DNA from: Candidatus Pyrohabitans jungbluthii
Lineage (GTDB): Archaea > Hydrothermarchaeota > Hydrothermarchaeia > Hydrothermarchaeales > BMS3B
Reading direction: 5' to 3'
Length of the DNA: 64,000 nucleotides
NCBI GenBank assembly: GCA_002010065.2
Contig: MTMD02000002.1
Span: 62,001-126,000 of the forward strand
Of the stretch, positions 2,584-63,861 are shown piece by piece (position 1 is the first letter of the stretch; each line of letters opens with the position of its first letter). The notes beneath the pieces were generated by a model, which was given only the letters and a program-made list of their open reading frames with translations, made no database searches and was not told where the DNA came from. The position numbers and the translations under genes are program-made.

Positions 2584-2626
2584 ATAAGGGCGCCGCACCC
2601 GCCCTTATCAACCCGTCTTCACCAAA
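2584..2626 (+). repeat. 3'-end hairpin element, copy 1
   Basis: A perfect 9-bp inverted repeat (ATAAGGGCG at 2584-2592, CGCCCTTAT at 2600-2608) encloses the 7-base loop CCGCACC. The pyrimidine-rich tail AACCCGTCTTCACCA follows. It starts 5 bases after the ychF stop codon, in sense orientation. Copies 2 (63817) and 3 (56873, minus strand) share stem length, loop length and the tail consensus. It could be a transcript 3'-end stabiliser, a termination signal or a dispersed repeat. Confidence 0.75.
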
Positions 2627-2654
2627 ATAAAGGCGCTATCCCTAAGGTGAAAAA

Positions 2655-3074
2655 ATGCGCGTGGAGAGCTATACCATAGAGGTGGAGCTTGAGGCGGAGA
2701 AGGGCTTCGCAGACATCACCGCTCAGGTGCAGGAGATTGTTACAAAAAGCGGGATGAAGCGCGGCATCGCCGTGGTGTTCAACGTGGGCTCCACCGGCGC
2801 AGTAACAACGATGGAGTACGAACCCGGACTAAAGAAGGACATCCCCCGCGCCTTAGAGCGCATAGCACCGCGAAGCGAGAGCTACGAGCACCACCTCACC
2901 TGGGGTGACGACAATGGCAGTGCCCATGTTAAGGCGGCGCTTCTGGGCCCCAGCCTAGCAGTGCCCTTCACCGACGGCAGGCTCACCCTAGGCACGTGGC
3001 AGCAGATCGTCGTAATTAACTTTGACACCCGCGCAAGACGTCGCCGTGTTGTGGTACAGCTCTTAGGGGAGTAG
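2655..3074 (+). CDS. YjbQ/UPF0047 family protein
   Basis: 139 residues, the full length for the family. Conserved features include GFADITAQVQEIV near the N-terminus, HHLTWGDDNGSAHVKAALLGPS in the middle (the His and Asp residues of the family's proposed active site) and LGTWQQIVVINFD near the C-terminus. YjbQ proteins form small trimers; some members show weak thiamine-phosphate-synthase-like activity in bacterial complementation, but the physiological role is unsettled. The start follows a GGTGA motif. It converges on the next gene with no gap, so it is probably a single-gene unit. Confidence 0.88.
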   Translation: MRVESYTIEVELEAEKGFADITAQVQEIVTKSGMKRGIAVVFNVGSTGAVTTMEYEPGLKKDIPRALERIAPRSESYEHHLTWGDDNGSAHVKAALLGPSLAVPFTDGRLTLGTWQQIVVINFDTRARRRRVVVQLLGE

Positions 3075-3443
3075 CTACTGGTTGAGGTACCGCCTTACCT
3101 TCGAGAGAAGCTCGCCAAGGTCGTGCTTCGGCGTAACCGGGTCGAGGATAACGCTGTCCTCGCTCTCCAGCTCCAGCTTCTCCATACTCTCCGGCGAGAG
3201 CAGCGCGTAGCCCTGGCGCGCTAAGGCGTAGCCGTAGTGTACCCGCTTGTCCACCTCCACCACGAAGTGGCGCTGCCTCAAGAAATAGGGCTTAACCTCG
3301 CCTAAGCGATAAATAATAACCTCGTCCATAGCTGAGATCTCGCTACCCCTGAGATGCTCCCGCGCAAAGCCTATCTCATTCTCCCCAACATCGCCCTCAC
3401 GCACACGTACAAGGTACTTGTTGCCCAGCACTCTCTCAAGCAT
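3075..3443 (-). CDS. conserved-looking small protein of unknown function
   Basis: About 122 residues from the ATG at 3443; a GTG at 3473 would add ten hydrophobic residues. It has no membrane segment and no motif I recognise. The charged, mixed alpha/beta sequence contains two VxxVxxG-like strands (YLVRVREGDVG, HFVVEVDKRVHYGYALARQGYALL) and ends in a helical KVRRYLNQ. A TATTTAGG box occurs twice just upstream (about 3472-3496), consistent with a promoter and a nearly leaderless start. It is convergent with yjbQ. The function is unknown. Confidence 0.6.
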   Translation of the reverse strand: MLERVLGNKYLVRVREGDVGENEIGFAREHLRGSEISAMDEVIIYRLGEVKPYFLRQRHFVVEVDKRVHYGYALARQGYALLSPESMEKLELESEDSVILDPVTPKHDLGELLSKVRRYLNQ

Positions 3444-3610
3444 CTCAATAAGCGCAGAGAAGATTAACGTCACCTAAATACATCCGCACCTAAATAATGC
3501 AACCCGCTATTGCTCCTTAAGCCACTGTTTCAAAACTCTGCGTTAGATTTGTCCCGTCCCACCAACACACTCCTACATGTAATACAGTGAGGTTTATTCT
3601 TCTTCAGTTA

Positions 3611-4416
3611 TCAAAATAGTCCTGCAATTTTAACTCCAATATCCAAAAAGAATTTTTTAACTTTTGAAGCGAATGTTAGCCCTTCATATCTAATTCCACT
3701 GCCCCACGCTTGTTTAAATGCCGCAAATGGATCCTCTGCATTTATTATTTCTACTATTGCTTTTTCATCAATATAAAGGGCCATTGTCGGTTTTATTCCT
3801 TGCTTTTGCCAGATGTCGTGTATCCCATTGCTGTCTTGGTCTAACCAGGTGTTTCCTTCTACTATTACCCCATTTTCTGTGATTGAAGCATATTCTGATT
3901 TGGTTCCATCCAGATGTGTAATATAAATATGCAGCTTCTCATTCCCCAAAAGGCCCTTGACAAAACCCGGCAAGTAATTGACATTCTGGTTGTAGTTGCT
4001 GATGCTTTCAGATAATTTTTCCTTTTCAAGCTCTTCCTTTTCCATCTGTTCCAATATTTCTTCCATACTTGGTGGAAGAGGTTTATCTTTTTTCCAGTAC
4101 TCACATGCCAGAATTTCATCATATTCTACGGTGATATCTCCAGTTTCCTCATCGACTGTTGACTCCGTTTGCGATGCAATGTATACATAACCACCTGGCG
4201 AACTCGATGGAACCCATCTTCCTTCGTCATAGGCGACGGCATGATTAATAGTTATTTGCACCCAATCAAAATATAGCCTGGCTCAGGTGGCGGGCAATCT
4301 TTTGTGCATGTAAAATATTTACCTGAAAATGACGAAGTTCCAGGGGTTATTTGAGCTTGAGCTACACTAATTAAGCTCATTACAATTAATGGGATTATTA
4401 ATATAATTTTTTTCAC
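3611..4416 (-). pseudogene. secreted, calcium-binding-repeat protein split by a one-base frameshift
   Basis: The GTG at 4416 follows GGAGAG and opens a classic signal peptide (KKIILIIPLIVMSLISVAQA), then about 30 residues with two cysteines, and stops at 4252-4254. The rest of the protein (216 codons to 3611) continues one base out of frame. The frames join if the A/T run at 4268-4271 had one more base, which would read through GYIFDWVQ. The mature part has a Glu/Lys helix and a DQDSNGIHD motif typical of calcium-binding thrombospondin-type-3 or EF-like loops. The gene is much AT-richer than its neighbours, which suggests acquisition. It may be a true pseudogene, a slippage switch or a homopolymer sequencing error. 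Confidence 0.65.
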
Positions 4417-4567
4417 TTTTCTCTCCTTACATACTCAAATTAGTTAAATACTTGTATTTCAAACTATAAAAGCTTTACGCTCTCCAATTTTTCAAAGAGT
4501 AAACTGAAATTTTTCGCCACAGCTTTATAGACTTGCCAATTCAGTGCTTACAAGGTTATTTCGAGAA

Positions 4568-5491
4568 TTAAATGGTTATCTCTATGTCCAGCTTCTCCGC
4601 CAGCTCCTTGTAGCGGTTGCGTATGGTTACCTCTGTTACGCCAGCCACTTCTGCAACCTCGCGCTGCGTCCTGCGCTCGCCAAGCAGCACACTCGCTATG
4701 TAAAGCGCAGCAGCACTTACGCCAGTGGGTCCACGCCCTGAAGTGAGCTCCTTGTCCATCGCCTTCTTGAGAATTTCCCTCGCCTTGCTCCTCACCTCAC
4801 CGCTCAACCCCAGAGCGGTGCCAAAGCGCTCGATGTAGTCCACGGGCGTGGTGGGGCGCAGACTCAGCCCCAGTTCGCGGGCAACGAAGCGGTAGGTTCT
4901 GCCTATCTCCTTGCGGTTCAGCTTGGCGGCGTCGGCAATCTCGTCAAGGGTGCGGGGAACGCCACACTGCCGGCAAGCGGCATAGATAGCGGCGGCGGTT
5001 ACACCCTCGATGCTCCGCCCGCGGATTAAGCCCTTCTCCACCGCACGGCGGTAGAGCACCGCAGCAGCCTCGCGCACATTCTTGGGCAAACCCAGGCGAG
5101 AGGATATCCGCTCCAGCTCAGTGAGCGCTATAGCAAGGTTGCGCTCCATGGCATTGCCAACGCGGATGCGCTGCTGCCATTTGCGCAGGCGGTACAGCTG
5201 GGCACGCTTGCTTGCGGAAAGCTCTTTACCATAGCTGTCCTTGTTGCGCCAGTCTATAATCGTAGAAAGCCCCTTGTCGTGGATCGTGTACGTAAGCGGA
5301 GCTCCGGTGCGGGTTCGCCTCACCGCCTGTTCATGGTCGAAGGCACGCCACTCCGGACCCTCGTCCAGCAGGTCTTGGTCTATTACGAGACCGCAGCCAT
5401 TGCACACAATCTCAGCGCGCTCATAATCGCGCATTAAACTCGTGCTCCCGCATTCGGGGCACTCATCTACGTACTCTACCTTTCTTTCCAA
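4568..5491 (-). CDS. tfb: transcription initiation factor B (TFB)
   Basis: 307 residues from the TTG at 5491, chosen because GGAGGAGGT lies 3-10 bases upstream; a longer frame would overlap that site. The N-terminal zinc ribbon has C11/C14 and C30/C33. Next comes the B-finger/linker region ([21 protein letters not shown]), then two cyclin folds (about 110-200 and 205-300) with [17 protein letters not shown] and [31 protein letters not shown]. The latter holds the helix-turn-helix that reads the BRE next to the TATA box. It recruits RNA polymerase to TBP-bound promoters. Its start overlaps the end of gar1, a linkage often seen in archaea. Confidence 0.96.
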
Positions 5492-5750
5492 GGGACCTCC
5501 TCCTCTCCTCTTTCTTGGATAACACAAATAACCCCCCGCTCTTTGCAGCGCTAAGCGCCCTCTCGAAAGCTCCCTCCTCCGGTTTAATCACGAAGTACGG
5601 ATTGGAGACAGGACCGATTATATCAACAACTTTTCCAACTTTTACACCATTTTTTGTGAAAACGTCCGCGTATAGCGGAGGAAAATCCCTTCCACGAAAA
5701 AGAAGTGTCCCACTCTTGCTTACATGGCTGAAAGTCCCCAGCATCCTCAA
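5463..5750 (-). CDS. H/ACA ribonucleoprotein subunit Gar1
   Basis: 95 residues. The small beta-barrel of Gar1 is visible: [47 protein letters not shown], followed by a basic [17 protein letters not shown] tail. Gar1 binds Cbf5 in the H/ACA guide RNP that makes pseudouridines in rRNA. The TTG at 5750 is preferred over the ATG at 5744 because AGGAGA sits 5 bases before it and archaeal Gar1 proteins begin M-[KR]-x-L-G. It overlaps the downstream tfb by 29 bases, so the two are co-transcribed. Confidence 0.88.
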
Positions 5751-5780
5751 AGAGCTCTCCTCCGGGCATAAAACTTAAAA

Positions 5781-6437
5781 CTATAGATGGCCTAATATTC
5801 TCTTGGGGTTAACACTGGTAATAATTTCTGAATACTTTTTGCTCATCCCTGAGCCAAGAGCGACGCTGATGAACTCTTCTGGGCTGAGTATATCCCCTGG
5901 TGAATGAGCGTCGGTGCACACCACAAGCTCCGCCTTTGCTTCCTTCGCAACGCTCGCCACGTGGCCGTTGGTCAGGCAGTGCCCCCTGCGAGAGGTCAGC
6001 TCTAAGTAAACTCCGTGCTCCCTCGCCTTCTCCGCCTCTTCCAGGGTTATGAATCCGGGATGGGCGAGGATGTCAACGTGAGTGCACTCTACGGCGGCGG
6101 CGTTTGTTCCCCTTGCGACTGGCTCAACCATGGTTTCGCCATGCACAACCACAATGCCTGCGCCAAGCTTCTTAGCCTTAGCCGCCAGCTCGGGAATCTT
6201 CGCCGGCGGGAGATGGGTAAGCTCTATCCCGGGTATAACCTCTATCCCGTGAGCCTCAAGCTCTTTTCCTATGCCCTGCAAACGGCGAAGGATGAACTCC
6301 ATATTTGAGCTGTCGGCGTGGTCAGTGATAGCTACCGCCTTAAACCCCTTCTCCGCATACCGCCGCGCTATCTCGGCGGGTATCAACTCGCCGTCGCTGA
6401 AAATTGAATGCACGTGCAGATCATAAGCCATGCTCAT
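5781..6437 (-). CDS. PHP-domain phosphoesterase
   Basis: 218 residues spanning one PHP domain. Metal-binding motifs are in order: DLHVHSIFSDGE (motif 1), AITDHAD (motif 2), HGE and ILAHPG (motif 3 region), and CTDAHSPGD (motif 4). The family binds three metals and hydrolyses phosphoesters; relatives include histidinol phosphatase and the PHP domains of polymerases. The single-domain archaeal form has no assigned substrate, so histidinol phosphatase is a possibility only. It lies 30 bases upstream of gar1 on the same strand and could share its transcript. Confidence 0.85.
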   Translation of the reverse strand: MSMAYDLHVHSIFSDGELIPAEIARRYAEKGFKAVAITDHADSSNMEFILRRLQGIGKELEAHGIEVIPGIELTHLPPAKIPELAAKAKKLGAGIVVVHGETMVEPVARGTNAAAVECTHVDILAHPGFITLEEAEKAREHGVYLELTSRRGHCLTNGHVASVAKEAKAELVVCTDAHSPGDILSPEEFISVALGSGMSKKYSEIITSVNPKRILGHL

Positions 6438-6610
6438 TAAATTCCCCTTTTGATATAATTTATTTTCTGTGATCCCCGCATTTGCTCGCTCCTCGCCTGT
6501 GCATGCTGAGCAAATACATAGAGGAATTATGTAATACTAGGATAGAATAGTAGGTGTTAATAAAATAAAAGAATGAGGCGCCTCACGGCGCACTGATAAA
6601 CACAAGTTTT

Positions 6611-6775
6611 CTAGAACCTGTAGCTTCTGCTCCTTCTCTCCGCTTTCTTTTTGTCGCGACAGGCTTTGCATCGCTTGGGGTCGGCGAACCCCTTCTCAGC
6701 AAAGAATTCCTGCTCACCTACGGTGAAGACGAACTCTTCTCCGCAGTCGACACAAACCAGGGTTTTATCTTCCAT
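6611..6775 (-). CDS. small zinc-ribbon protein
   Basis: 54 residues starting at the ATG at 6775 behind AAGGAGAG. The sequence contains CVDCGEEFVFTVGEQEFF, then KGF and RCKACR, followed by a basic end (DKKKAERRSRSYRF). The CxxC...CxxC spacing with G-E-Q-x-F-F between is the hallmark of the short probable-zinc-ribbon family found in bacteria and archaea. It probably binds one zinc and RNA or protein; no function is established. It lies downstream of another tiny zinc ribbon on the same strand. Confidence 0.82.
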   Translation of the reverse strand: MEDKTLVCVDCGEEFVFTVGEQEFFAEKGFADPKRCKACRDKKKAERRSRSYRF

Positions 6776-6793
6776 TTTTACATCTCTCCTTTC

Positions 6794-6976
6794 TTACTTT
6801 TTTCTGTACCCTTTGTTCGGGGGCGGCACAGTCTCCCCTCTGAAGATTTTGCCGCAGTCGCAGCTCACCACCTGATAGAAGGTAGCCTTGCCATGTTTGT
6901 AAACCCGGGTTGTTCCCACAACCGAGTTGAGCGAACAAAGAGTACCGCAAGAGGGACACCTTATCTCCGACGACAA
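6794..6976 (-). CDS. second tiny zinc-ribbon protein
   Basis: About 60 residues from the TTG at 6976, which sits 6 bases after AAGGAGA; a GTG two codons upstream is the alternative. It has CPSCGTLC and CDCGK separated by about 28 residues, which would form a zinc ribbon, and a lysine-rich C-terminus (PPPNKGYRKK). A much longer open frame exists upstream, but it runs into the AhbD-like gene and looks non-coding. The three small/radical-SAM genes from 8127 to 6611 are on one strand and closely spaced, so they may form one transcript. The function is unknown. Confidence 0.6.
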   Translation of the reverse strand: MSSEIRCPSCGTLCSLNSVVGTTRVYKHGKATFYQVVSCDCGKIFRGETVPPPNKGYRKK

Positions 6977-7068
6977 ATGCACATCTCCTTGAAGAAGCTC
7001 CCCCTTTCGAAGGAAACCTCTTTTCCTCCTGGGGCTAATATTCACGAAAATAAAAGTTGCTGGAAAAT

Positions 7069-8127
7069 TTACTCTTTCCTCAACTTCCTGGGTACATAGC
7101 TGCAGTATGGCTCCTCTGCAAGGTAGTCGCCTGTCACAGCATACGCACGAGCGCGGCAACCCCCGCAAACTGCGAGGTACTCGCACACTCCGCACTTACC
7201 CTTATAGCGCTTGAAGTCTCTGAGCTCTTTAAAAAGCTCACTGTTCTCCCAGATATCCTTAAAGCTCTTCTCGTATATGTTTCCAGCGCTCTTGGGGAAG
7301 TATGAGCAGGGGTAGACTTCGCCCTTGTGATTTATGAGCGCTATTAGCTGCCCGGCTATGCAGCCCTTTCCTCCGCCCGTGGAGAAGCTCAGGGAGCGCC
7401 GCTTTATGGGCTTGCCCTCCTGCTTCGCGCGCTGGGCGAATATGCGGTAGTACATGGGTGCGCAGGTTGGGCGCACGTACATCTCAGTCTCGCGCTGCTC
7501 CATGTCGTAGTGCCAGTTGAGTATCTTTTCATAGTCCTCCTTGCTTATCAGCTCCTCCATTATCTCCTTTCCTCTGCCTGTGGGCACAATCATGAACATA
7601 TACCACGCGGTGGCGCCGAGCTTCTTGGCAAGCTCGTAAACCTTAGGAATCTCGTCTTGGTTCCTCTTTGTGAAGGAGGAATTGACTATGAAGGGGATGC
7701 CGTGCTTTTTGAAGAGCTTGGCCGCGCGTATCGCGCCCTCAAAAGCTCCGCGCTGGTTGCGGAAGTTGTCATGCACCTCTGCGGTTGAGCCGTCTATGCT
7801 GATGGAGACTATCCTTATCCCGGCATCCTTGATCTTCTCACACACCTCGTCGGTAACGAGAGTTCCATTTGTCGCCATAGCCATTCGCAAGCCGCGCTCA
7901 GTACCGTAACGGGCTATCTCAAAAATATCCTTGCGCAGCAGTGGTTCGCCCCCGCTGAGCACCAGCACAGGCTTGGCATAGCTGGCGATGTCATCTATCA
8001 CCGCCTTAGCCTGCTCTGTGCTCGGGCCCTTCTCAGCCTTTATCGCTGCCTCAGCGCGACAATGCACACAGCGCAGGTTGCACCTCTGCGTAATCTCCCA
8101 GGCTATCCAGCGAGGTTCGAACTTCAT
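7069..8127 (-). CDS. ahbD: radical SAM/SPASM enzyme of the alternative heme pathway (AhbD/AhbC-like)
   Basis: 352 residues from the ATG at 8127. [22 protein letters not shown] carries the CxxxCxxC motif for the SAM-binding [4Fe-4S] cluster; SGGEPLLR and the SISIDG strand follow the radical SAM barrel. The C-terminal SPASM-type region (CSYFP...[31 protein letters not shown]) strongly resembles heme b synthase AhbD and its relatives AhbC/NirJ. AhbD decarboxylates two propionates of Fe-coproporphyrin III to make heme b from siroheme. AhbC, AhbD and NirJ2 are close, so the exact step is uncertain. A heme role fits the ccm operon and multiheme cytochrome in this window. Confidence 0.72.
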
Positions 8128-8235
8128 TGTAATAATCGCAGGAGCTATCAATAAAAATCAAAGCTGAACCAGGGAAGGAGGATACCCAACCCCCAACAGG
8201 TATATACGTAAGAAATGATACGATTTTGAGGAAAA

Positions 8236-8922
8236 ATGAGAATCCACGGAAAGCTTAAACAGGGCACCTTTATCCAGCGCTTGAACAGGTTTTCAGCGCT
8301 TGTGGAGGTGGATGGAAGCATTGCAAAAGCACACCTCCCAAACCCGGGCAGGCTTCAGGAGCTTCTCATCCCTAGCACGCCTGTGCTGCTGCGTGAGAGC
8401 AACGCTGCCCACAGAAAGACCGCCTATGACCTCATAGGGGTTAAAGCTGGCGAGGTGTGGGTGAGCATCGATTCTCGCCTGCCGAACGCGCTTTTCAGAG
8501 AGGCGATGGAGCAGGGCACATTGGAAGAATTTGCAGGCTACCGCATAGCCAAGGAAGAGGTGAGCTTCGACACGAGTAGAATAGATTTCCTGCTTGAAAA
8601 CTCTTCACCCTGCCTTGTGGAAGTCAAGTCCTGCACCCTTGTTGAGGAGGGTGTTGCCAAGTTTCCTGACGCGCCAACCGATAGAGGGAGGAGACACCTC
8701 CACCACTTAATGAAAGCAAAAGAGGCTGGCTACCGCTGCGCCGTCGTCTTTGTTATCCAACGCAGCGATGCCTTTGCTTTTGCGCCCAACGACGCCACAG
8801 ACGAAGCCTTTGGCGAAGCTTTGAGAGAGGCGCATCGCAGAGGCGTTGAGGTCTACGCCTATCGCTGTGACTTCGACGGGAGGGAGATTAGGATAAAAAG
8901 CAAGGTTGAGGTGCTGATTTAG
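8236..8922 (+). CDS. sfsA: SfsA family nuclease-like protein
   Basis: 228 residues, the usual family length. Recognisable blocks are the N-terminal OB-like region (GTFIQRLNRFSALVEVDG, HLPNPGRL), the nuclease-like core (SRIDFLLE, CLVEVKSCTL, FPDAPTDRGRRHLHHL) and YRCAVVFVIQRSD. The D...EVK signature matches PD-(D/E)xK nucleases. The name comes from E. coli sugar fermentation stimulation; DNA binding is reported, but the biological function is unclear. It stands alone, divergent from the AhbD-like gene, with a T-rich stretch after its stop. The 8923-9089 gap is AT-rich and shows only promoter-like sequence. Confidence 0.92.
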   Translation: MRIHGKLKQGTFIQRLNRFSALVEVDGSIAKAHLPNPGRLQELLIPSTPVLLRESNAAHRKTAYDLIGVKAGEVWVSIDSRLPNALFREAMEQGTLEEFAGYRIAKEEVSFDTSRIDFLLENSSPCLVEVKSCTLVEEGVAKFPDAPTDRGRRHLHHLMKAKEAGYRCAVVFVIQRSDAFAFAPNDATDEAFGEALREAHRRGVEVYAYRCDFDGREIRIKSKVEVLI

Positions 8923-9089
8923 AGAATTGAAAAATCTTTTCTGCTTTTTCTAAGCAAAGTTAACCATAAATACAATCATGATAAAATATAGATTGATGAA
9001 CAATATTTTGTCTGACAGATATTTACAATATAGTCATAAGATGAGAATAAACACTATTAATTTAAATAAATCTCTATGATTTGGTGAAA

Positions 9090-10196
9090 ATGGCAGGAAA
9101 ATGCGCAATATGCGGAGCCGAGGGCAAAGAAATCTCAGCAGAGCTTCAGGTGTGCCTCCGCTGCATAAGGCAGAAGCCCGAGGAAGCTCTCGCGCTGGCG
9201 CAGGAGGCTCACGCAACCTCGCGAAGGCGCTTTGGCTTTCCCGCCAAGGTGCCGAGAGGTGGCAAGGTTAAGTGCACCCTGTGCGTCAACCAGTGCGAGC
9301 TCCATGAGGGCGAGCGCTCGCTCTGCGGGCTGCGCGTTAATCGCGGAGGTAAGCTGGTGCACCTCTCTGGCACCGCTCGCGAAGCGGTGGTGAGCGCCTA
9401 CCACGACGCCCTGCCGACGAACTGTGTCGCCGCCTGGGTATGCGCTGGCTGCACCGGCGCAGGCTATCCGCGCTACTCGCACGCGGAGCATGGGGTAGAG
9501 CTCGGGTACAAGAATCTGGCGGTCTTCTACGGCGCGTGCACCTTCGACTGTCTCTTCTGTCAGAACTGGGAGTACCGCGAAAATGCTCGGACGCTGAGTC
9601 CGAGGATGACGCCGGAGCAGCTTGCCTCGCTTGCAGACTCCAAGACGAGCTGCATCTGCTACTTTGGCGGCGATCCCTCACCGCAGATAGCACACTCAAT
9701 AAAGACAAGCGAGCTTGCGCTTAGCCATGGCGAAGGTGAAATTTTGAGGATATGCTACGAGACCAATGGGAGTATGCATCCTGGCGCACTCAGGAAGGCT
9801 GCGAAGCTCAGCCTTGAATCGGGAGGGTGCATAAAGTTCGACCTCAAGGCATGGGATGATAACCTTCACCTTGTGCTCACTGGGGCGAGCAACCGCTATA
9901 CCATTGAGAACTTCGCCTACCTGGCTAGCCTTGTGGAGGAGCGCCCTTCGCCACCCTTTCTGATAGCGAGCACCCTGCTGGTGCCGGGCTACATCGACGA
10001 GGCTGAGGTCGAGGCGATAGCGCGCTTTATCGCAGAGCTAAACCCGGAGATACCCTACTCCCTGCTCGCATTCTACCCCACCTATATGATGCGCGACCTT
10101 CCAACGACGAGCTGGAAGCAGGCGAGGGCATGCTTAGAAGCGGCGCGGCGTTACCTTCGCAACGTTAAGCTTGGCAATGTGCACCTGCTGCGCTAA
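9090..10196 (+). CDS. PflA-like radical SAM protein with N-terminal zinc-ribbon extension
   Basis: 368 residues from the ATG at 9090, behind GGTGA. An N-terminal CxxC pair (CAICG, CLRC) precedes a second cysteine-rich block (CTLCVNQCELHEG, CGLR). The radical SAM motif CTFDCLFCQNW and the YFGGDPSPQ strand place it in COG1180-type proteins related to pyruvate formate-lyase activators and the AmmeMemoRadiSam enzymes. No glycyl-radical enzyme partner is in the window, so the substrate is unknown. It overlaps the end of the convergent BFN lipoprotein gene by 4 bases. Confidence 0.8.
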   Translation: MAGKCAICGAEGKEISAELQVCLRCIRQKPEEALALAQEAHATSRRRFGFPAKVPRGGKVKCTLCVNQCELHEGERSLCGLRVNRGGKLVHLSGTAREAVVSAYHDALPTNCVAAWVCAGCTGAGYPRYSHAEHGVELGYKNLAVFYGACTFDCLFCQNWEYRENARTLSPRMTPEQLASLADSKTSCICYFGGDPSPQIAHSIKTSELALSHGEGEILRICYETNGSMHPGALRKAAKLSLESGGCIKFDLKAWDDNLHLVLTGASNRYTIENFAYLASLVEERPSPPFLIASTLLVPGYIDEAEVEAIARFIAELNPEIPYSLLAFYPTYMMRDLPTTSWKQARACLEAARRYLRNVKLGNVHLLR

Positions 10197-19176: not shown

Positions 19177-19248
19177 AGCCGAGGGAGGGAATTGAACCCC
19201 CGAAAAGCGGATCTGCAGTCCGCCACGTTACCACTCCGTCACCTCGGC
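19177..19248 (-). tRNA. tRNA-Cys (anticodon GCA)
   Basis: 72-base cloverleaf. The acceptor stem GCCGAGG pairs with CCTCGGC; the anticodon stem GCGGA/TCCGC encloses loop CTGCAGA with anticodon GCA; the T arm is GGGGG with loop TTCAATT. The discriminator base is U, as expected for tRNA-Cys. No CCA is encoded after it and no intron interrupts the anticodon loop. It lies between DUF554 and the DsbA-like gene. Confidence 0.95.
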
Positions 19249-55544: not shown

Positions 55545-55545
55545 T

Positions 55546-55765: not shown

Positions 55766-55987
55766 ATGAAGAGGTTTGCAAATACCGCTCAGAAGGTTAA
55801 GGCAATCCTCGAGGTATTTGAGGGGAGGGAGAAGCTAGCCGGGGATGAGATAGTAACAAGACTCCGTGAGCGTGGCTACGATGTCAACCCTGGAAATATA
55901 AAGATGTTCATACGCTACCACATGCTTTACAAGTACCTGCGCAAGGAGTCGAGAAGCGGAAAGAACCTGTACTTCCTTATAAGTTAG
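55766..55987 (+). CDS. small helical protein, HTH-like
   Basis: 73 residues from the ATG at 55766 (GGTGAGGTGA upstream); a longer frame from 55688 lacks a site. The sequence KVKAILEVFEGREKLAGDEIVTRLRERGYDVNPGNIKMFIRYHMLYKYLRKESRSGKNLYFLI resembles a winged helix with a short wing. No family is recognised. It lies 36 bases before larB but probably is separate. Confidence 0.6.
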   Translation: MKRFANTAQKVKAILEVFEGREKLAGDEIVTRLRERGYDVNPGNIKMFIRYHMLYKYLRKESRSGKNLYFLIS

Positions 55988-56023
55988 GATAAATTTTTAA
56001 GTTATCTCCTATCTTCTCTATTC

Positions 56024-56818
56024 ATGCATCTCAGGAAAGTGCTTGAGGAGCTTTTAGCTGGGAAGCTCAGCGTGGAGGAAGCGGAAAGGAAGATCAAGCT
56101 TTTCAGCTTGGAGGAAATCTCCGGTTTATCCAAGCTGGATATAAACAGAGAAGCGAGAGCGGGTGCCCCCGAGGCGGTGTTCGGCGAGGGTAAGAGCGCT
56201 GAGCAGATAATTAAAATTGCTGAGAAGTTTATTGAGCGAAAGGGGAGGTGCATAGTCACCCGCCTAAATGAGGAGAAGATAAGGGCGCTTAAAGAGAAGT
56301 TTGAGGGCAGAGCCAAGGTGGAGATTTATCCCAATGCCAGGCTGGTGGTGCTCAAGGCGAAAGACTTTAAGCTGGAGAAGACAGGCGGCAGGGTAGCGGT
56401 GCTCTGCGCAGGAAGCTCAGACATACCCGCCGCTGAGGAGGCGGAGGTGATCGCGAGGGAGATGGGATGCGAGGTGTTCTCCTTCCGCGATATTGGTATA
56501 GCAGGCATACACCGCCTTCTACCCGCGCTGGAAAAGATTGTGAGCGCCGACGTTGACGTGGCAATAGTGGCGGCTGGCATGGAAGGTGCTCTGCCAAGCG
56601 TAGTCGCAGGTCTTGTGGACATACCAATTATAGGCCTGCCCGTCTCCACAGGCTATGGCATCCACGGCAAGGGCGAGACGGCACTCTTTGCCATGCTCCA
56701 GAGCTGTTCCCCCGGCATAGCGGTGGTGAATATAGACAACGGTTTCGGCGCAGGTGTAGTGGCGGCGCTCATAGCGAACCGTGCTGCGAAGTTTAGACAG
56801 AGAGTATCTCATAAATGA
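56024..56818 (+). CDS. larB: nickel-pincer cofactor biosynthesis protein LarB
   Basis: 264 residues. The N-terminal helical region (LRKVLEELLAGKLSVEEAERKIKLF) precedes the PurE/AIR-carboxylase-like domain: GRVAVLCAGSSDIPAAEEAEVIAREMG, IVAAGMEGALPSVVAGLVDIPIIGLPVSTGYG. LarB carboxylates and hydrolyses nicotinic acid adenine dinucleotide in synthesis of the nickel-pincer nucleotide used by lactate racemase and relatives. larC is convergent next door; larE is not in the window. Confidence 0.93.
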   Translation: MHLRKVLEELLAGKLSVEEAERKIKLFSLEEISGLSKLDINREARAGAPEAVFGEGKSAEQIIKIAEKFIERKGRCIVTRLNEEKIRALKEKFEGRAKVEIYPNARLVVLKAKDFKLEKTGGRVAVLCAGSSDIPAAEEAEVIAREMGCEVFSFRDIGIAGIHRLLPALEKIVSADVDVAIVAAGMEGALPSVVAGLVDIPIIGLPVSTGYGIHGKGETALFAMLQSCSPGIAVVNIDNGFGAGVVAALIANRAAKFRQRVSHK

Positions 56819-56833
56819 GCAGGAAGGCGCCAA

Positions 56834-56873
56834 TGGTACGGAAGGGGTGATAGGGGCGGGGAAGGCGCCCCTA
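56834..56873 (-). repeat. 3'-end hairpin element, copy 3
   Basis: On the minus strand, TAGGGGCG pairs perfectly with CGCCCCTA around the 7-base loop CCTTCCC; the tail TCACCCCTTCCGTACCA follows. It begins one base after the larC stop codon, in the sense of larC, and lies between the convergent larB and larC ends. It shares the stem and tail with copies 1 and 2, but the loop differs. Confidence 0.75.
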
Positions 56874-56874
56874 T

Positions 56875-58095
56875 TTAGAAAAACTTAGCCCTCGCCTCGC
56901 AGGCGATCCTGCTCAGCACCTCGCGAATGGGTAGCGAGGTTTTCTCGGCGATGCGCCTTGCATCCTCGTACTCTGGCTTCAGGGTCACAACTTTGCCTTT
57001 TTCGTCCAAGCCCAGTTTCACCCTCGCATAGCCCTCGTAGTTTGAGATTCTCACCCTGATTTTCCTGACCTCTCTCCTGAGGGCAAAGCGCATGCTGACC
57101 CTGGAGTACCTCACCCCCAGGGTGCCCAGTTCGCGCATCATCAGCTGAGCGAGCACTTCCTCCTCGCCGAGAGGCGAAATCACCTGGACCACGTAGCCGG
57201 GGCGGTTTTTCTTTGCTACTGTGGGTATAATCTGCACATCCAGCGCTCCCGCCTTGAAGAGCTCTCCCACCGCATTCCCCAGAACCTCGCCAGAGACGTC
57301 GTCAACGCTTGTTTCGAGCAGCGATATCTGCTCCTTCTCCAGCAAGGGCGCTTCGCAGAGGTAAAGCTGGAGCACATTCGGTGCGCTGCTGAGCTGAGCT
57401 GTACCCGCGCCTCTGCCTATGCTCAAAATCTTGGCTACAGGAAGCTCCTCTGAAAACTCCTCCACAAGGCAAGCGAGAATCGCTAGTCCTGTTGGCGTGG
57501 TAAGCTCGCCTTTGTGTCTCTTAAAAAAGGGCACAGCTTTAGCTCTCAGAATCTCCGCAGCCAGGGGCAGGGGCACAGAAAGCTCACCATGCGAGGTTCT
57601 AACCACACCAGAGCCAACATTTACAGGCGTGGAGATTACATTAAAATCTTTAAAAACGCCCAGAGCGTCGAGCAGCGAAGCAGCACCAAGGATGTCGAAT
57701 AGGGTGTCCACACTCCCAAGCTCGTGGAGGTGGGCATGCTGGTCGCAATGAATGCGTGCCTCGCCCTCTATGAGGGTCTCAAGGCATCGCCTGGCAAAGT
57801 CCTTTGCCTCCCTGCTAATCTGACATTTTTCAAGGATTTTTTCCATATAGTATCTGATGTCATCGTAAGATAACCCTTCAAAATCTTCTTCTATATTCAG
57901 CACCACCTGCTTGCACCTGATATTCTTCCTGTTCACATCTCTAAGCTCGAATCTAACTTTTTTCCCTGTCTCGCCCTCAATGAGCTTAACAACCTCTTCC
58001 AGGGCTTCAGAGGGGGCACCTAAGTCCAAAAGTGCGGCGATGAACATATCGCCGCTTATTCCGGCGACGCTCGGGTCTATAAGCAAGAGTTTCAT
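56875..58095 (-). CDS. larC: nickel-pincer cofactor nickel insertase LarC
   Basis: 406 residues, a full-length single-frame LarC. Family marks are LLIDPSVAGISGDMFIAALLDLG, EARIHCDQHAHLHELGSVDTLFDILGAA (His-rich), LLETSVDDVSGEVLGNAV and YEDARRIAEKTSLPIREV. LarC adds nickel to the pyridinium dithiocarboxylate intermediate in a CTP-dependent manner. In some organisms larC is split with a programmed frameshift; here it is intact. It overlaps the gamma-CA gene by 4 bases. Confidence 0.93.
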   Translation of the reverse strand: MKLLLIDPSVAGISGDMFIAALLDLGAPSEALEEVVKLIEGETGKKVRFELRDVNRKNIRCKQVVLNIEEDFEGLSYDDIRYYMEKILEKCQISREAKDFARRCLETLIEGEARIHCDQHAHLHELGSVDTLFDILGAASLLDALGVFKDFNVISTPVNVGSGVVRTSHGELSVPLPLAAEILRAKAVPFFKRHKGELTTPTGLAILACLVEEFSEELPVAKILSIGRGAGTAQLSSAPNVLQLYLCEAPLLEKEQISLLETSVDDVSGEVLGNAVGELFKAGALDVQIIPTVAKKNRPGYVVQVISPLGEEEVLAQLMMRELGTLGVRYSRVSMRFALRREVRKIRVRISNYEGYARVKLGLDEKGKVVTLKPEYEDARRIAEKTSLPIREVLSRIACEARAKFF

Positions 58096-58604
58096 GGCTG
58101 CTCACGCATGTACTCTTTCGCCAAAGCGTGATAAACCTCGGCGTTTTTCTTTATCGCCTTCACCTCCTCCCTGCTGAGCTCCCTCACAACCTTCGCCGGC
58201 ACACCAAGGATAAGCGAGTTTGGCGGAAAGCTTTTGCCCTCTGTGAGCACAGCGCCAGCGCCCACAAGGCAGTTCTCACCAACATCCACGCCATTCAGCA
58301 CCACAGCGCCCATTCCTATAAGCGAATTGCTCCCAATCCTGCACCCGTGGATGACGCACCCGTGGGCTATGCTCACAAAGTCGCCTATCTCTACTGGAAA
58401 GCCCTTGGAGACATGGATAACTGCGCCGTCCTGCACATTGGAGTACCTGCCTATTTTAATCCTATCCCTATCCCCCCGCAAAACTGCGTTGTACCATACG
58501 CTAGAAAAATCGCCTATCTCCACGTCGCCAATTAGTTGCGCAGATGGAGCTACGAACACATCCTTTCCCAACCTCGGTGAAATCCCTCTGAAGCTCATGA
58601 GCAT
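58092..58604 (-). CDS. gamma-carbonic-anhydrase-like hexapeptide-repeat protein
   Basis: 170 residues of left-handed beta helix: VFVAPSAQLIGDVEIGDFSSVWYNAVLRGDRDRIKIGRYSNVQDGAVIHVSKG. Three His (VIHVSKG, IAHGCVIHGC) could be the zinc ligands. Carbonic-anhydrase activity is possible but unproven for this YrdA-type family. It overlaps larC by 4 bases and starts 5 bases after pepQ. Confidence 0.88.
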   Translation of the reverse strand: MLMSFRGISPRLGKDVFVAPSAQLIGDVEIGDFSSVWYNAVLRGDRDRIKIGRYSNVQDGAVIHVSKGFPVEIGDFVSIAHGCVIHGCRIGSNSLIGMGAVVLNGVDVGENCLVGAGAVLTEGKSFPPNSLILGVPAKVVRELSREEVKAIKKNAEVYHALAKEYMREQP

Positions 58605-58608
58605 GCAA

Positions 58609-59604
58609 TCACTTCCTGAAGCTGGTAATCAGCTTTGGCTTTTTTCCTATTAAAACCATGTCCTCAATCCTTACACCTATCTCCCTATAAACCCCAGGTT
58701 CTACTGTCACCACCATTCCCTCGCGAAGCTCCTCCTTCCCGTGCATGCTTAAGGTAGGAGCCTCGTGCACCTCCAATCCAAGCCCATGTCCCGTGGAATG
58801 CAGAAAGTACTTCTCTAAGCGATACTCCCGCAGCACCTCGCGGGCAGCATTGTCAACCTCACGCACAAGGCTGCCGGCAACGCAATGTTCAATCGCCGCC
58901 CTCTGAGCTTCGAGCACCGCCTCATAAATCTCCTGGAAGGCTTTGCTTTCGGCGAGGGAAAAGCTGCGCGTTATATCGCTTGCGTAGTGCTCAAACCTCG
59001 CCCCCAGGTCGACAATAATCGAAGAAGGCTCAAGGGGAACCGCTTTTGGCGTGTGGTGAGGGATAGCGGAGTTCTCACCTGAGGCGATGATCACATCGAA
59101 GGCAGCATCGGCTTCCCTCTCCAACAGGTACCCAGCGTAGGCGGCAAGTTCCTTCTCACTCTCGGCTTGGGTAAGCCTCTCGGCGACTTTCCCCATTACT
59201 TGCTCTGCTATCCGCGCCGCCTTTTTTATCCTCTTCAGCTCCTCCTTCTCCTTCACCTTCCGCATATCCTCCAAGAACCCTAGGTTAGCCACCTGCCTCC
59301 CTTTAAGATACCTCTCATAGAACTCATAATTGGCGTACCCCTTCTCTATGCCAACTCGCTTACCCTTTATCTGCTTTAACCTTCGTCTGAAGTTCTTGAC
59401 CACCTCCACCTCTACGTTTGAGCCTTCGCTTCGCTTCCCATCCATTGGCGAGACGAGAAGTCTTGGGTTGTCCTCAAGAAGCAGGGCCGCAAAAGCTGAG
59501 GGATAAAAACCGGTGAGGTAGTATATGTTCTGGGGCTTCAGCACTATACCTGTGCTCACCTTTCTCTTCCTAAGCTCCTCAAGGGCTCTCTCAAGGCGGT
59601 TCAT
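58609..59604 (-). CDS. Xaa-Pro dipeptidase-like M24 peptidase
   Basis: 331 residues. The N-terminal creatinase-like domain precedes a pita-bread core with metal ligands in DLGARFEHYASDITRS, HSTGHGLGLEVHE, EPGVYRE and GVRIEDMVLIG. It cleaves Xaa-Pro dipeptides (prolidase) or small peptides. It starts at the ATG at 59604. It is in the same-strand chain queA-pepQ-gammaCA-larC, though intergenic spaces vary. Confidence 0.9.
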   Translation of the reverse strand: MNRLERALEELRKRKVSTGIVLKPQNIYYLTGFYPSAFAALLLEDNPRLLVSPMDGKRSEGSNVEVEVVKNFRRRLKQIKGKRVGIEKGYANYEFYERYLKGRQVANLGFLEDMRKVKEKEELKRIKKAARIAEQVMGKVAERLTQAESEKELAAYAGYLLEREADAAFDVIIASGENSAIPHHTPKAVPLEPSSIIVDLGARFEHYASDITRSFSLAESKAFQEIYEAVLEAQRAAIEHCVAGSLVREVDNAAREVLREYRLEKYFLHSTGHGLGLEVHEAPTLSMHGKEELREGMVVTVEPGVYREIGVRIEDMVLIGKKPKLITSFRK

Positions 59605-59675
59605 GTGAGTTAATTATCTGCGCAGGTTTTTATATATAATCTGAATTGAAAAATTATGCGTTTGACTAAGAGGAC

Positions 59676-60680
59676 TCACCTGAATATCAGCATCGCATCC
59701 CCAAAGCTGTAAAAGCGGTACCTGTGCTTAATCGCCTCCTGGTAAGCCCTGAGAATCCGCTCCCTCCCTGCGAAGGCGCTCACGAGCATTAGAAGCGTAG
59801 AGCGGGGGAGGTGGAAATTGGTTATTAGCCCGGCATAGGGCAGCCTGAACTCGTAGCCAGGGTAGATGAAGAGCGTAGTCGTAGAAACGCCCGGAACAAC
59901 TCCTCCGTCCTGAAAGGCGCTCTCCAGGGCGCGAACAGTCGTCGTACCCACGGCGAAAACCCTGCACCCCTCTTCCAGCGCACGGTTTATCTTCTCTGCC
60001 TCATTGCGGGGTATCTCAAAATGCTCCTCGTGCATTCGATGCTTTTCCACCTCCTCCACCTTCACAGGCAGAAACGTGCCAAGACCAACGTGCAGTGTTA
60101 TGAAAGCAAACTCCACGCCGCGGCTGCGGAGCTCAGCTAAAAGCTCCTGTGTAAAGTGAAACCCTGCGGTGGGTGCGGCGATGCTCCCGTCCTTGCTTGC
60201 ATAAACCGTCTGGTACTCCTCCGGGTTATCTACCCTCCTCTTTATGTACGGCGGGGTTGGCATCTCACCTATCTTCCACATCGCCTGTCTAATATCTCCA
60301 CCACTGAAGCGGACCACAAGTTTACCTTCGCTTTTATTCTCAACCCGAGCATGTATTCCAGAAGGAAATATTATCTCCATGCTCTCCCTCAGCTTGCCCT
60401 TGAAGAGGCACTCCCACAGGTTCTCCTCAAGCTCCTTCACCAGAAGAAGCTCCACCCTGCCGCCAGTGCTCTTCTTCCCCTTAAGGCGCGCAGGAATTAC
60501 GCGAGAATTGTTGAAAACAAGCAGGTCGCCCCTCTCAAGGTAGCGTACTATTTCCCTGAAGATGCGGTGCTCTATATTGTCGCCTCGCAGCACCATTAAC
60601 TTTGAGGCATCCCTCCTTCTAAGGGGCTCCTGGGCGATAAGCTCCTTTGGCAGGGCGTAGTCGAAGTCGCTCAATTTCAT
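59676..60680 (-). CDS. queA: S-adenosylmethionine:tRNA ribosyltransferase-isomerase (QueA)
   Basis: 334 residues from the ATG at 60680; the TTG frame is longer by three codons. Sequence follows QueA throughout: MKLSDFDYALPKELIAQEPLRRRDASKLMVL, LVFNNSRVIPARLKGKK, GSIAAPTAGFHFTQELLAELRSRG, FITLHVGLGTFLPV, GTTTVRALES, YAGLITNFHLPRSTLLMLVSAFAG. QueA adds an epoxycyclopentanediol unit to preQ1 in queuosine synthesis. This is typical of bacteria; archaea normally make archaeosine. No tgt or queG is in the window. Confidence 0.93.
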   Translation of the reverse strand: MKLSDFDYALPKELIAQEPLRRRDASKLMVLRGDNIEHRIFREIVRYLERGDLLVFNNSRVIPARLKGKKSTGGRVELLLVKELEENLWECLFKGKLRESMEIIFPSGIHARVENKSEGKLVVRFSGGDIRQAMWKIGEMPTPPYIKRRVDNPEEYQTVYASKDGSIAAPTAGFHFTQELLAELRSRGVEFAFITLHVGLGTFLPVKVEEVEKHRMHEEHFEIPRNEAEKINRALEEGCRVFAVGTTTVRALESAFQDGGVVPGVSTTTLFIYPGYEFRLPYAGLITNFHLPRSTLLMLVSAFAGRERILRAYQEAIKHRYRFYSFGDAMLIFR

Positions 60681-60861
60681 AGTCAACAAAGGAGAGGTTC
60701 ACGTGGAAAATATATAGTTTAACCTTAATTTTAACAAAACCTCCACCGCAGGATACCGAACAAAACTTTTAAATATTTATTAAATTAATTACACAGGTGG
60801 CTTAGTGGAAGCCCGCTCCGATAATCTGATATTACAAAAAGCTCTGCAGGAGATTGAGAGG

Positions 60862-61554
60862 ATGAAGGAAGTAAGCATTGCCAAGGGTCTGGTAATTCTT
60901 GTTATCCTTTTGAGCATGCTCTCCGTGGCTCATGCCAAGCCAGAGTATGCGGAAAAGACTGGCGAAAGCTGCGTTGTCTGCCATCCCAATGGTCCGCCTG
61001 AACTGGGACCTGCGGGAGAGTACTACAAGGAGCACGGCACCCTCGAAGGCTACGGCGAGCTTCCAGCAGGAGAGCCTGAGCCAGGGGGGAGGTGCAACGT
61101 CTGCCATGCCCAGTTCAAGCCCAACCCCACGCCCCGGGACTTGAGCGCTGCTCCGCGAGAGCCCAACCACAGGTTTGAGTTCAACCACGGCGGCGGCAAG
61201 TTCTGGTGCCTCACCTGCCACAACCCTGTGAACCGCGACACCCTTCGCCTTTTCAACGGGAGCGAAATCCCCTTTGAGGATGCTCCTGAACTATGCGCCC
61301 AGTGCCATGGCGTGATTTACCAAGAGTGGAAGGACCACATCCACGGCAGGTGGGTTGGCAGTATCGAAAGCCCAGAGCCGGATGTTATATGTACAGATTG
61401 CCACAACCCGCATGATCCAGAGTTCAAACCGATTAAGCCAGAGAAGCCGCCGGAGAAGCCTCCAGCTTCAAAGGAGATTCCCAACTATCCGGTATACTCT
61501 TTCATAGTGCTAGCACTAAGCCTTTTGCTTGCTGTGTACGCCGCGTGGAGGTAG
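60862..61554 (+). CDS. five-heme, membrane-anchored cytochrome c
   Basis: 230 residues from the ATG at 60862 (AGGAG 9 bases upstream), which opens a normal signal peptide ending SVAHA; a GTG at 60805 would add 19 residues. Five CxxCH motifs occur in order: CVVCH, CNVCH, CLTCH, CAQCH and CTDCH. Further histidines (FNHGG, DHIHG, NPHDP) could serve as distal ligands. A Pro/Lys linker and a C-terminal membrane helix (FIVLALSLLLAVYAAW) anchor it. It resembles the cytochrome subunits of CISM complexes; it has too many hemes for DsrJ. Confidence 0.9.
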   Translation: MKEVSIAKGLVILVILLSMLSVAHAKPEYAEKTGESCVVCHPNGPPELGPAGEYYKEHGTLEGYGELPAGEPEPGGRCNVCHAQFKPNPTPRDLSAAPREPNHRFEFNHGGGKFWCLTCHNPVNRDTLRLFNGSEIPFEDAPELCAQCHGVIYQEWKDHIHGRWVGSIESPEPDVICTDCHNPHDPEFKPIKPEKPPEKPPASKEIPNYPVYSFIVLALSLLLAVYAAWR

Positions 61555-61558
61555 AGAG

Positions 61559-62536
61559 ATGGTTGACGAGAGCAGGAGAGACTTCCTCAAAAAAGCGGCT
61601 GCTGGTGCAACCGCAGCTGTTATTCCTTTCGCAAACGTGCGTATCCCAGTAATTGACGTAACCCTCGAGGAGTTCTTCCAGAAACACTACAAAGAGATGA
61701 GTGACGATGACAAGAAGCGCGTTATAGAGCGTCTTAAGAAAGAGTACAAGGAGAAGTACGGTATAGACGCTGAGATAAAGACGACGCCACCAAAGGAAGG
61801 CGTTGTTTGGGGCTACGCGCTCAATATACAGAAGTGCATCGGCTGCAGGCGCTGCGTCTATGCCTGCATGCGGGAGAACAACCAGTCTCGAGCCTCACCT
61901 AAGGATCCGACTAAAAGCGAGATACAGTGGATCCGCGTGCTTGAGATAGAGAAGTTCAAGATTCACCCTGGCGAGGAAGGCAAAGACTTCCGTACTCGCT
62001 TTGGCGAGATTATTGCGGGCGTCAACTTAGAGGAGAATGAGCACTACTACAACCCGGAGCATGTGCCAGAGGAGGATAAATTCTACGTGCCTATCCAGTG
62101 CCAGCAGTGCGAGCGCCCACCCTGTGTGAAGGTGTGCCCAACAAAAGCTACATGGAAGGAGCCTGACGGAATAATCGTGGTGGACTACAACTGGTGCATT
62201 GGCTGCAGATTCTGCCTCGCCGCGTGCCCCTACTGGGCTCGCAGGTTTAACTGGAGCGATCCATATTTACCCAAGGAGGAGATCAACCCCAAGATGCACT
62301 ACCTGGGCAATCGTATCCGCATGCGTGGCGTTGTGGAAAAGTGCACCTTCTGCATACAGCGCACCAGAGAGGGGCGCTACCCCGCGTGCGTGGAAGCTTG
62401 TCCAGTGGGTGCAAGGAAGTTCGGCAACCTGCTTGATCCAGAGAGCGATGTGAGGAAGGTGCTGGAGAAAAAGCGCGTCTTCCGGCTGAAAGAGGAACTC
62501 GGAACGCAGCCGAAATTCTTCTACTTCATGGACTGA
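61559..62536 (+). CDS. exported four-cluster ferredoxin subunit (DsrO/HybA-like)
   Basis: 325 residues from the ATG at 61559. An N-terminal SRRDFLKKAAAGATAAVIPF resembles a Tat signal. Cluster motifs are CIGCRRCVYACMRENN, CQQCERPPCVKVCP, CIGCRFCLAACPYWARRF and CTFCIQRTREGRYPACVEACP, giving about four [4Fe-4S] clusters. It would shuttle electrons between the cytochrome and the NrfD-type subunit. It is 4 bases after the cytochrome gene. Confidence 0.9.
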   Translation: MVDESRRDFLKKAAAGATAAVIPFANVRIPVIDVTLEEFFQKHYKEMSDDDKKRVIERLKKEYKEKYGIDAEIKTTPPKEGVVWGYALNIQKCIGCRRCVYACMRENNQSRASPKDPTKSEIQWIRVLEIEKFKIHPGEEGKDFRTRFGEIIAGVNLEENEHYYNPEHVPEEDKFYVPIQCQQCERPPCVKVCPTKATWKEPDGIIVVDYNWCIGCRFCLAACPYWARRFNWSDPYLPKEEINPKMHYLGNRIRMRGVVEKCTFCIQRTREGRYPACVEACPVGARKFGNLLDPESDVRKVLEKKRVFRLKEELGTQPKFFYFMD

Positions 62537-62546
62537 GGTGATGGAG

Positions 62547-63815
62547 ATGAGCAAGCTAATCGACTTCGTGATAACCTCAATAAAGGTTTCCCTGACAGGA
62601 AGCAAGAAGTACTACGCATGGCTGGCGAGTCTGCTCATAATGGTGCTCTTCGGAGCGTTTTCATATTACTACCAGCTCAAATACGGATTGATAATCACCG
62701 ACATCCGCGACCAAGTGAGCTGGGGTAGCTACATCGCCAACTTCACATTCCTCGTTGGCGTAGCAGCGGCGGCAGTGATGATCGTCTTGCCTGCGTACAT
62801 CTACAACTACAAGGAATTCAAACATATCACCATATTCGGCGAACTCCTCGCTGTTGGAGCTTTGACAATGTGTCTGAGCTTCGTGCTTATTGACCTCGGT
62901 AGGATTGACAGGATGCTCCACATCCTGCCCTTCACAGGTACGCCAAACTGGCCTCAGTCCATGCTCACCTGGGACGTGATTGTGCTCAATGGCTACCTGT
63001 TCCTGAACCTGCTAATCCCGGGCTACCTGCTGTACAAAGCCTACGTTCGCGAGCCTCCACGAAAGTGGATTAAGATATTCATCCTCATCTCCATACCCTG
63101 GGCGATAAGCATCCACACAGTTACGGCGTTTCTCTACGGTGGCTTAGCCGCGAGACCCTTCTGGAACACCGCCGTGATGGCTCCGCGATTCCTTGCAAGC
63201 GCGTTTACAGCAGGACCCGCACTGATGATAATTATCCTCCAGATAGTCAGGCGCTACACATGCATTGGCAAGCCCGGGTGTAAGCTCGTTGTGACGGACA
63301 GAGCGCTCTTCACCCTGGCGCACATCGCTTTAATATCCATGCTGGTCAACCTGTTCTTCCTTGGCTCTGAGATTTACACCGTGGGCTACGCCGCAACCTC
63401 ACACCTTGCGCCGCTGAAGTACCTCTTCTTCGGCCTGGAGCACAACGGCGTACACTATGGCAAACTTCAGCCATACATGTGGGCAGCGATTACAATGGAG
63501 ATAATCGCCGCGATCTTGCTGCTCTTCCCGAAGACCCGCAAGAACTTCACAACGCTCAACATAGCCTGCATCTTCGCCTTCCTCGGCATATGGACAGAGA
63601 AGGGTATGGGCCTCATAATACCAGGCTTTATACCCACGCCCATCGGCGAGATATGGGAGTACTATCCCACACTTATGGAGATAATGATAACCCTCGCCGT
63701 GTGGGCTCTTGGTTTTCTGGTGTACACCCTTCTCCTCAAGGTTGCTATAGCGATAGAAGCCGAGGAAGTGGTGCACCCCAGCGCTAAAGACAAAGAGATG
63801 CCTGAGGCGCACTGA
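62547..63815 (+). CDS. NrfD/DsrP-type quinol-interacting membrane subunit
   Basis: 422 residues from the ATG at 62547 (GAGGTG 6 bases upstream); an ATG at 62541 and a GTG at 62538 also exist. About ten membrane helices; typical family blocks are DQVSWGSYIANFTFLVGVAAAAVMIVLPAYIY, LSFVLIDLGRID and PWAISIHTVTAFLYGGL. NrfD subunits bind menaquinol and drive electron transfer through the FeS subunit. It ends one base before hairpin copy 2. Confidence 0.9.
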   Translation: MSKLIDFVITSIKVSLTGSKKYYAWLASLLIMVLFGAFSYYYQLKYGLIITDIRDQVSWGSYIANFTFLVGVAAAAVMIVLPAYIYNYKEFKHITIFGELLAVGALTMCLSFVLIDLGRIDRMLHILPFTGTPNWPQSMLTWDVIVLNGYLFLNLLIPGYLLYKAYVREPPRKWIKIFILISIPWAISIHTVTAFLYGGLAARPFWNTAVMAPRFLASAFTAGPALMIIILQIVRRYTCIGKPGCKLVVTDRALFTLAHIALISMLVNLFFLGSEIYTVGYAATSHLAPLKYLFFGLEHNGVHYGKLQPYMWAAITMEIIAAILLLFPKTRKNFTTLNIACIFAFLGIWTEKGMGLIIPGFIPTPIGEIWEYYPTLMEIMITLAVWALGFLVYTLLLKVAIAIEAEEVVHPSAKDKEMPEAH

Positions 63816-63816
63816 G

Positions 63817-63861
63817 TAGGGGCGCCGCACCCGCCCCTATTACCCCATCCTCACTCACCAA
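63817..63861 (+). repeat. 3'-end hairpin element, copy 2
   Basis: TAGGGGCG pairs perfectly with CGCCCCTA around the loop CCGCACC (identical to copy 1), followed by TTACCCCATCCTCACTCACCA. It begins one base after the stop codon of the NrfD-type gene, in sense orientation. The tail ends at the stop codon of the convergent regulator gene. Confidence 0.75.

Follow-up and report, generated by a model that had tools for sequence, protein, structure and literature searches.

A hairpin repeat of Candidatus Pyrohabitans jungbluthii, probably a mobile DNA palindrome, with near-identical units at tRNA genes of other archaeal phyla

In a stretch of 64,000 nucleotides of Candidatus Pyrohabitans jungbluthii (a deep-sea archaeon of the Hydrothermarchaeota; contig MTMD02000002.1, positions 62,001 to 126,000), hereafter the window, three copies of a short hairpin stand directly after the stop codons of ychF, larC and the NrfD gene. 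Our analysis indicates that these hairpins are, very probably, copies of a small (~41 bp) non-autonomous mobile DNA palindrome. We favor a mobile repeat over an RNA end signal since the unit has spread through intergenic gaps and nearly the same unit occurs in tRNA genes of unrelated archaea. A mobile palindrome had been one of the options raised by an earlier, sequence-only reading of the window, and it is the one that agrees with the empty orthologous sites in three sister species, the variable copy number, the arrays of mixed subfamilies, and the near-identical copies in other phyla. Below, L, G and C numbers are our labels for loci, genomes and contigs, G000 being the window's own genome.

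Results

Each window copy has a perfect stem of 8-9 bp, a loop of 7 bases and a pyrimidine-rich tail, with its 5' edge 0-4 nt 3' of the stop codon:

2583..2624, plus strand: unit 1, hairpin ATAAGGGCG-CCGCACC-CGCCCTTAT with tail CAACCCGTCTTCACCA, after ychF; subfamily with AAGGG stem and GCAC loop; genome position G000:C2:64583-64624
56834..56875, minus strand: unit 2, hairpin ATAGGGGCG-CCTTCCC-CGCCCCTAT with tail CACCCCTTCCGTACCA, after larC; subfamily with AGGGG stem and TTCC loop; genome position G000:C2:118834-118875
63815..63856, plus strand: unit 3, hairpin TAGGGGCG-CCGCACC-CGCCCCTA with tail TTACCCCATCCTCACTC, after the NrfD gene; subfamily with AGGGG stem and GCAC loop; genome position G000:C2:125815-125856

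The stems and the loops CCGCACC, CCTTCCC and CCGCACC were found as the sequence-only reading had described them; the pyrimidine-rich character of the tail also held, but its proposed tail formula does not apply to the larC copy (TATCACCCCTTCCGTACCA). Folded as single-stranded DNA, each copy gave z ~ -4 against shuffled sequences. Within the window alone, a loose 19-mer pattern was unconvincing by itself (3 found, 1.1 expected). A known RNA family was rejected, with no Rfam match to the hairpins; at the gathering score, the sole match in the window was a tRNA at 19177-19248.

The search was then extended to the window's own genome (1.99 Mb, 15 contigs), where the family unit is ~41 letters long: a stem of 9 bp, ATA(A/G)GGGCG ... 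CGCCC(C/T)TAT, encloses a loop of 7 nt and is followed by a pyrimidine tail with ACC at its end. A covariance model (R1), built from 22 aligned copies, gave 23 matches at 17 sites (E <= 4e-5); of these, 22 are whole copies with E < 1e-8, and the remaining one, which contains an insert, has E = 4e-5. The 22 copies are the training set and match the model by construction, the independent support being the first pattern search and the other genomes. With up to 2 mismatches, that pattern search returned 18 matches per strand, against 9 and 7 for the reversed control, and every one of 15 exact matches was intergenic or at a gene end. Compensatory changes keep pairing at four of the nine stem pairs. 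The hairpin family is real and far beyond chance.

Gene context was taken from simple open reading frame (ORF) calls on the stretches around copies, and none of the copies examined falls within established coding sequence except at its extreme ends. Beyond the window, copies at gene ends often supply the stop codon themselves, as a TAA or TAG of the unit (L030, L051, L084, L089). In one of these (L089, G001:C1:520-561) the loop reads GAGAAGG, the usual loop in reverse complement, as would result from inversion of the hairpin. At two loci, L036 and L064 (~1501-1542), an antisense unit occupies the beginning of an ORF for an M24-type peptidase and is in frame with it, frame and family being judged by eye; in both species this peptidase may have an element-encoded N terminus.

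A chimeric tblastn query and fetched stretches served to locate the orthologous sites in three sister species (G002, G003 and G004). All three window sites are empty in these species, as are several other sites, whereas in G001 the NrfD copy is also present and the larC copy carries a nested palindrome. Within the genus, the genomes hold 23, 18, 2, 0 and 0 copies, and two species of a second genus in the family hold 4 and 2; these counts are minima because the genomes are drafts. Filled sites vary as well: the L053/L082 site has one unit in G000 and two in G001, and at the L051/L071 site these genomes differ in the subfamily of the first unit. After the NrfD stop codon, a T-run is found in sister species without the element and is absent from G000 and G001 (window 63815-63870; L097, L098, L100), so the element might have inserted here as if replacing a terminator.

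Where units are grouped, the arrays are polar. Of 35 sites, 17 have an additional unit or remnant on the right-hand side of the first unit, and none has one on the left-hand side, although the latter figure informs on weaker remnants only, since the leftmost strong unit served as the anchor of each site. In 14 of these 17 arrays it is the first unit that is better preserved, and in 11 of 13 (two-sided p = 0.02) once orthologous sites had been collapsed by hand. Units are always head to tail, 1-4 nt apart and without spacers, and a CRISPR-like array was rejected on these grounds. Adjacent units often differ in subfamily, hence the arrays are not simple duplications. The simplest reading of the polarity, we infer, is repeated insertion at the same left border. 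Two window copies have a possible neighbor of this kind:

2625..2655, plus strand: possible decayed second unit (AAATAAAGGCGCTATCCC...), by eye, between unit 1 and the next start codon
56806..56833, minus strand: possible second-unit remnant (TTGGCGCCTTCCTGCTC...), by eye, below the 1% cut of the remnant scan

The candidate at 2625..2655 had no significance in the remnant scan and is comparable to the ATAAAG second unit at L051/L071. In addition, a second palindrome (CTTCGTCACCCG...CGGGYAAC) has inserted repeatedly into the hairpin, mostly in older units; it is nested at a near-identical point, with variable inner hairpins, at L038, L041, L048, L076, L088, L091 and L061. A third short repeat (GCAGAGAG.TGCGAGACCTCCTGCCAC.A.AGATT) stands beside two element sites of one genome, on the left flank at L044 and the right flank at L045.

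The unit is not confined to Hydrothermarchaeota. Among GTDB genomes, the exact pattern matched Candidatus Pyrohabitans sp. JdFR-17 (Hydrothermarchaeota), a euryarchaeal metagenome-assembled genome (MAG) and a Ca. Aenigmatarchaeota MAG (contig G516:C97). A strict outer-hairpin pattern was present in 11 of 394 archaeal genomes, and R1 detected copies in 7 of the 156 Aenigmatarchaeota genomes, the binning of the element-bearing MAGs being accepted as given. Most of these near-identical units of other archaeal phyla either adjoin a tRNA gene or lie within one. Several lineages have the unit 2-4 nt after a tRNA 3' end (L066, L092, L179, L180, L187), and in Aenigmatarchaeota (G249, G414, G478, G516) it sits within tRNA genes, in the T-loop or the anticodon loop, the interrupted loci including L188, L182, L191, L202, L205, L208 and L214.

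When the unit and a short purine-rich stretch were removed, ARAGORN called a tRNA at 16 of 22 sites if a second intron was allowed, and at 8 of 22 if it was not, compared in both cases with none of 19 intergenic Hydrothermarchaeota control sites given the same treatment. The intron-aware run is permissive and several of its 16 calls have doubtful isotypes; at three of them (L191, L196, L184) a tRNA was called even before removal, and L184 is not a clean case because it comes from G253, beside tRNA genes. At L191, the unit itself is the 51-nt intron of a tRNA-Met(cat) that ARAGORN calls directly. Modeling suggests that in such introns the pyrimidine tail would pair with the purine-rich 3' stretch into a second hairpin; folds of the tRNA inserts showed no clear bulge-helix-bulge motif at the exon-intron junctions. 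In Aenigmatarchaeota, the unit may be the core of transposed tRNA introns.

Two other arrangements at tRNA genes were observed. At L190 and L200 (G516), genes with a unit in the anticodon loop are interrupted again in the T-loop, by an unrelated insert several hundred bases long. On the minus strand of G055:C9 (L163, ~1155-1700 from the minus-strand start), multi-hairpin repeats of ~172 bp lie beside a complete tRNA-Pro. Partial copies of the tRNA 3' end (TCGAATCTCGGCGGTCCCA) adjoin two of these repeats, a pattern resembling successive integrations at a tRNA.

Discussion

The sequence-only reading had seen the hairpin as always sense and placed right after a stop codon, and had offered, besides mobility, an RNA 3'-end stabilizer or a termination or processing signal. 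The placement is true of the window copies but not of the genome, where a sense stop codon lies just left of the unit at 4 of 17 sites (ychF, larC, NrfD and L051), three of them being the window copies themselves. Three random draws from the 17 sites would all be post-stop in ~0.6% of cases, hence the window is an atypical sample. At about 11 sites the left neighbor is the start of an antisense gene (or, at L047, a tRNA), two sites are ambiguous, and several units sit between divergent genes or promoters; this is the lack of consistent position and orientation relative to stops, revealed by the genome-wide covariance search, that the earlier reading had named as contradicting it. A palindrome that tolerates insertion only after stops is likewise contradicted, since most copies are antisense upstream of gene starts and others flank or interrupt tRNA genes. 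A termination, RNA-processing or mRNA 3'-end stabilizing signal could still draw on the three window copies, which begin 0-4 nt past the stop, and on the NrfD site, whose missing T-run would fit an element that had replaced a terminator. Yet, besides the mixed orientation and the few post-stop sites, no U-run follows the stem, the tail being C-rich and the window copies giving no terminator-like match in the scanned stretch, and the sister-species sites are empty, while in other phyla the unit lies inside tRNA genes; such a signal is very unlikely, and the three window copies are most likely not dedicated to forming RNA 3' ends. The same layout might instead reflect a promoter-proximal regulatory or insulating element, its 5' edge held at the core promoter by regulator binding or a read-through block. 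Eight promoter-facing sites have a TATA-like box (score of at least 6/8) at a distance of 6-12 nt from the edge of the unit, a spacing tighter and more uniform than free insertion into gaps needs; at L050 a similar box is seen by eye, and L047 has a weak box only. Nevertheless, the start-versus-stop bias (12:4, p = 0.08) is not significant, the stop-codon and tRNA copies are not covered, sister species keep the same promoters without the element (L042, L045, L046 and L048 sites), and in a compact genome with short gaps selection against damage could yield the same spacing; we regard this explanation as unlikely.

A further alternative is that the unit is primarily an intrastrand DNA triplex, spreading and changing through replication instability without a transposition enzyme. 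Stem and tail are coupled, AAGGG/CCCTT stems going with AACCC tails and AGGGG/CCCCT stems with ACCCC tails (7:0 versus 1:19 among Hydrothermarchaeota copies; 17:0 versus 0:3 among those of Aenigmatarchaeota). On the G-rich strand, the tail, a constant 3-nt linker and the purine arm read GGGTT-GAT-AAGGG or GGGGT-AAT-AGGGG, an order that exactly satisfies the rules for antiparallel triplex triads (G.GC and T.AT) and that is common to repeats of Methanomicrobiaceae with like architecture, shown biochemically to form triplexes in vitro (PMC8044849); for the bacterial TM/BoxC repeats, of another layout, a triplex has also been shown (PMC4666352). Watson-Crick pairing of the 5' arm with the tail was rejected, as it fails for the AAGGG/AACCC combination, where triplex rules fit, and so was a G-quadruplex, the G-rich strand having three runs of at least three G where four are needed (criterion of PMC8044849). 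On the other hand, the unit offers five contiguous triads by sequence, short of the ITxF criterion of Holder et al. of at least six, or seven with one mismatch (PMC4666352), and the linkage could simply reflect two old subfamilies. An antiparallel triplex at the unit is therefore put forward as a hypothesis, given that descent of two subfamilies explains the linkage equally well. As an account of the spread itself the triplex is highly improbable, since slippage leaves dispersal to unlinked sites and across phyla unexplained.

The mobile palindrome that we prefer would move as DNA, its hairpin recognized by a putative enzyme acting in trans. Insertion would join the 5' edge of the unit to the border of a transcribed unit, whether the edge of a core promoter, a stop codon, a tRNA 3' end or a tRNA loop; new units would tend to enter at the same left border, older and decayed units staying to the right, and the unit would be tolerated where no gene is broken. 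Some observations weigh against this proposal. Partial remnants occur in some seemingly empty relatives (G004 at L048 and L051), so that part of the empty-site pattern is loss. Of the terminal inverted repeats and target-site duplication expected of a miniature inverted-repeat element (MITE) of a DDE transposon, the stem itself is an inverted repeat, but no clear duplication was seen at empty-versus-filled junctions, e.g., L046/L140. A search for Y1_Tnp (PF01797) found none in G000 or the other tested element-bearing genomes, other transposase families being unsearched, and the conserved placement near promoters could reflect function. RAYT/IS200 mobilization was rejected on the absence of PF01797 from these genomes, the element-free G007 having 13 such domains, and a virus-borne element was rejected as two exact patterns had no IMG/VR match.

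In Thermoproteales, gain of tRNA introns by a transposition-like process has been inferred earlier. A bolder extension of our proposal, which we advance tentatively and consider possible but short of probable, is that an undescribed mobile hairpin crosses from one archaeal phylum to another, moved by putative machinery that recognizes its folded form (hairpin or triplex). In Aenigmatarchaeota it would serve as an "introner", giving rise to tRNA introns in the T-loop and the anticodon loop, and in Hydrothermarchaeota the same unit would build polar intergenic arrays at promoter edges. If true, this would be a direct link between intergenic repeats and the origin of tRNA introns in archaea. One 41-bp unit is a free intergenic repeat and, in another phylum, the core of tRNA inserts; it provides a concrete mobile sequence, with filled and empty sites, for testing that origin, and its distribution suggests that Hydrothermarchaeota and DPANN archaea have exchanged sequence. 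What deserves following up is the connection with tRNA introns of another phylum.

The literature on archaeal arrays of miniature inverted-repeat transposable elements and on Hydrothermarchaeota repeats yielded nothing relevant, and comparison was made with better-known systems. REP/REPIN sequences with their RAYT (Y1) transposases are also short (20-40 bp) extragenic palindromes, dispersed, clustered and non-autonomous (PMC2817692, PMC3733652, PMC3116915). By contrast, the unit described here has the foot ATA(A/G)GGG / C(C/T)TAT and no GTAG/CGTC tetranucleotide, its copies stand head to tail only, whereas REP/REPIN clusters alternate in orientation, and it occurs in tens rather than hundreds of copies, with no Y1 transposase in the tested element-bearing genomes and with an association to tRNA. 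The G-rich triplex repeats of Methanomicrobiaceae (PMC8044849) are likewise intergenic and have, on one strand, a G-rich third strand, a 3-nt linker, a purine arm, a loop and a pyrimidine arm; the present unit differs in its fewer and shorter G-runs, its five triads, a mixed stem of 9 bp, an extra conserved tail and its copies in tRNA genes. TM_ECO, BoxC and PIT elements (PMC4666352) also combine a hairpin with an adjacent stretch that could supply a purine-motif third strand, at intergenic and unstable loci, but in our unit the third strand lies on the other side of the hairpin, the triads are below threshold and the sequence is unrelated. Finally, compared with the tRNA introns cited in PMC4090602 and PMC3293823, the intron core is here a repeat that is common to different phyla and also occurs away from tRNA genes, in intergenic arrays.

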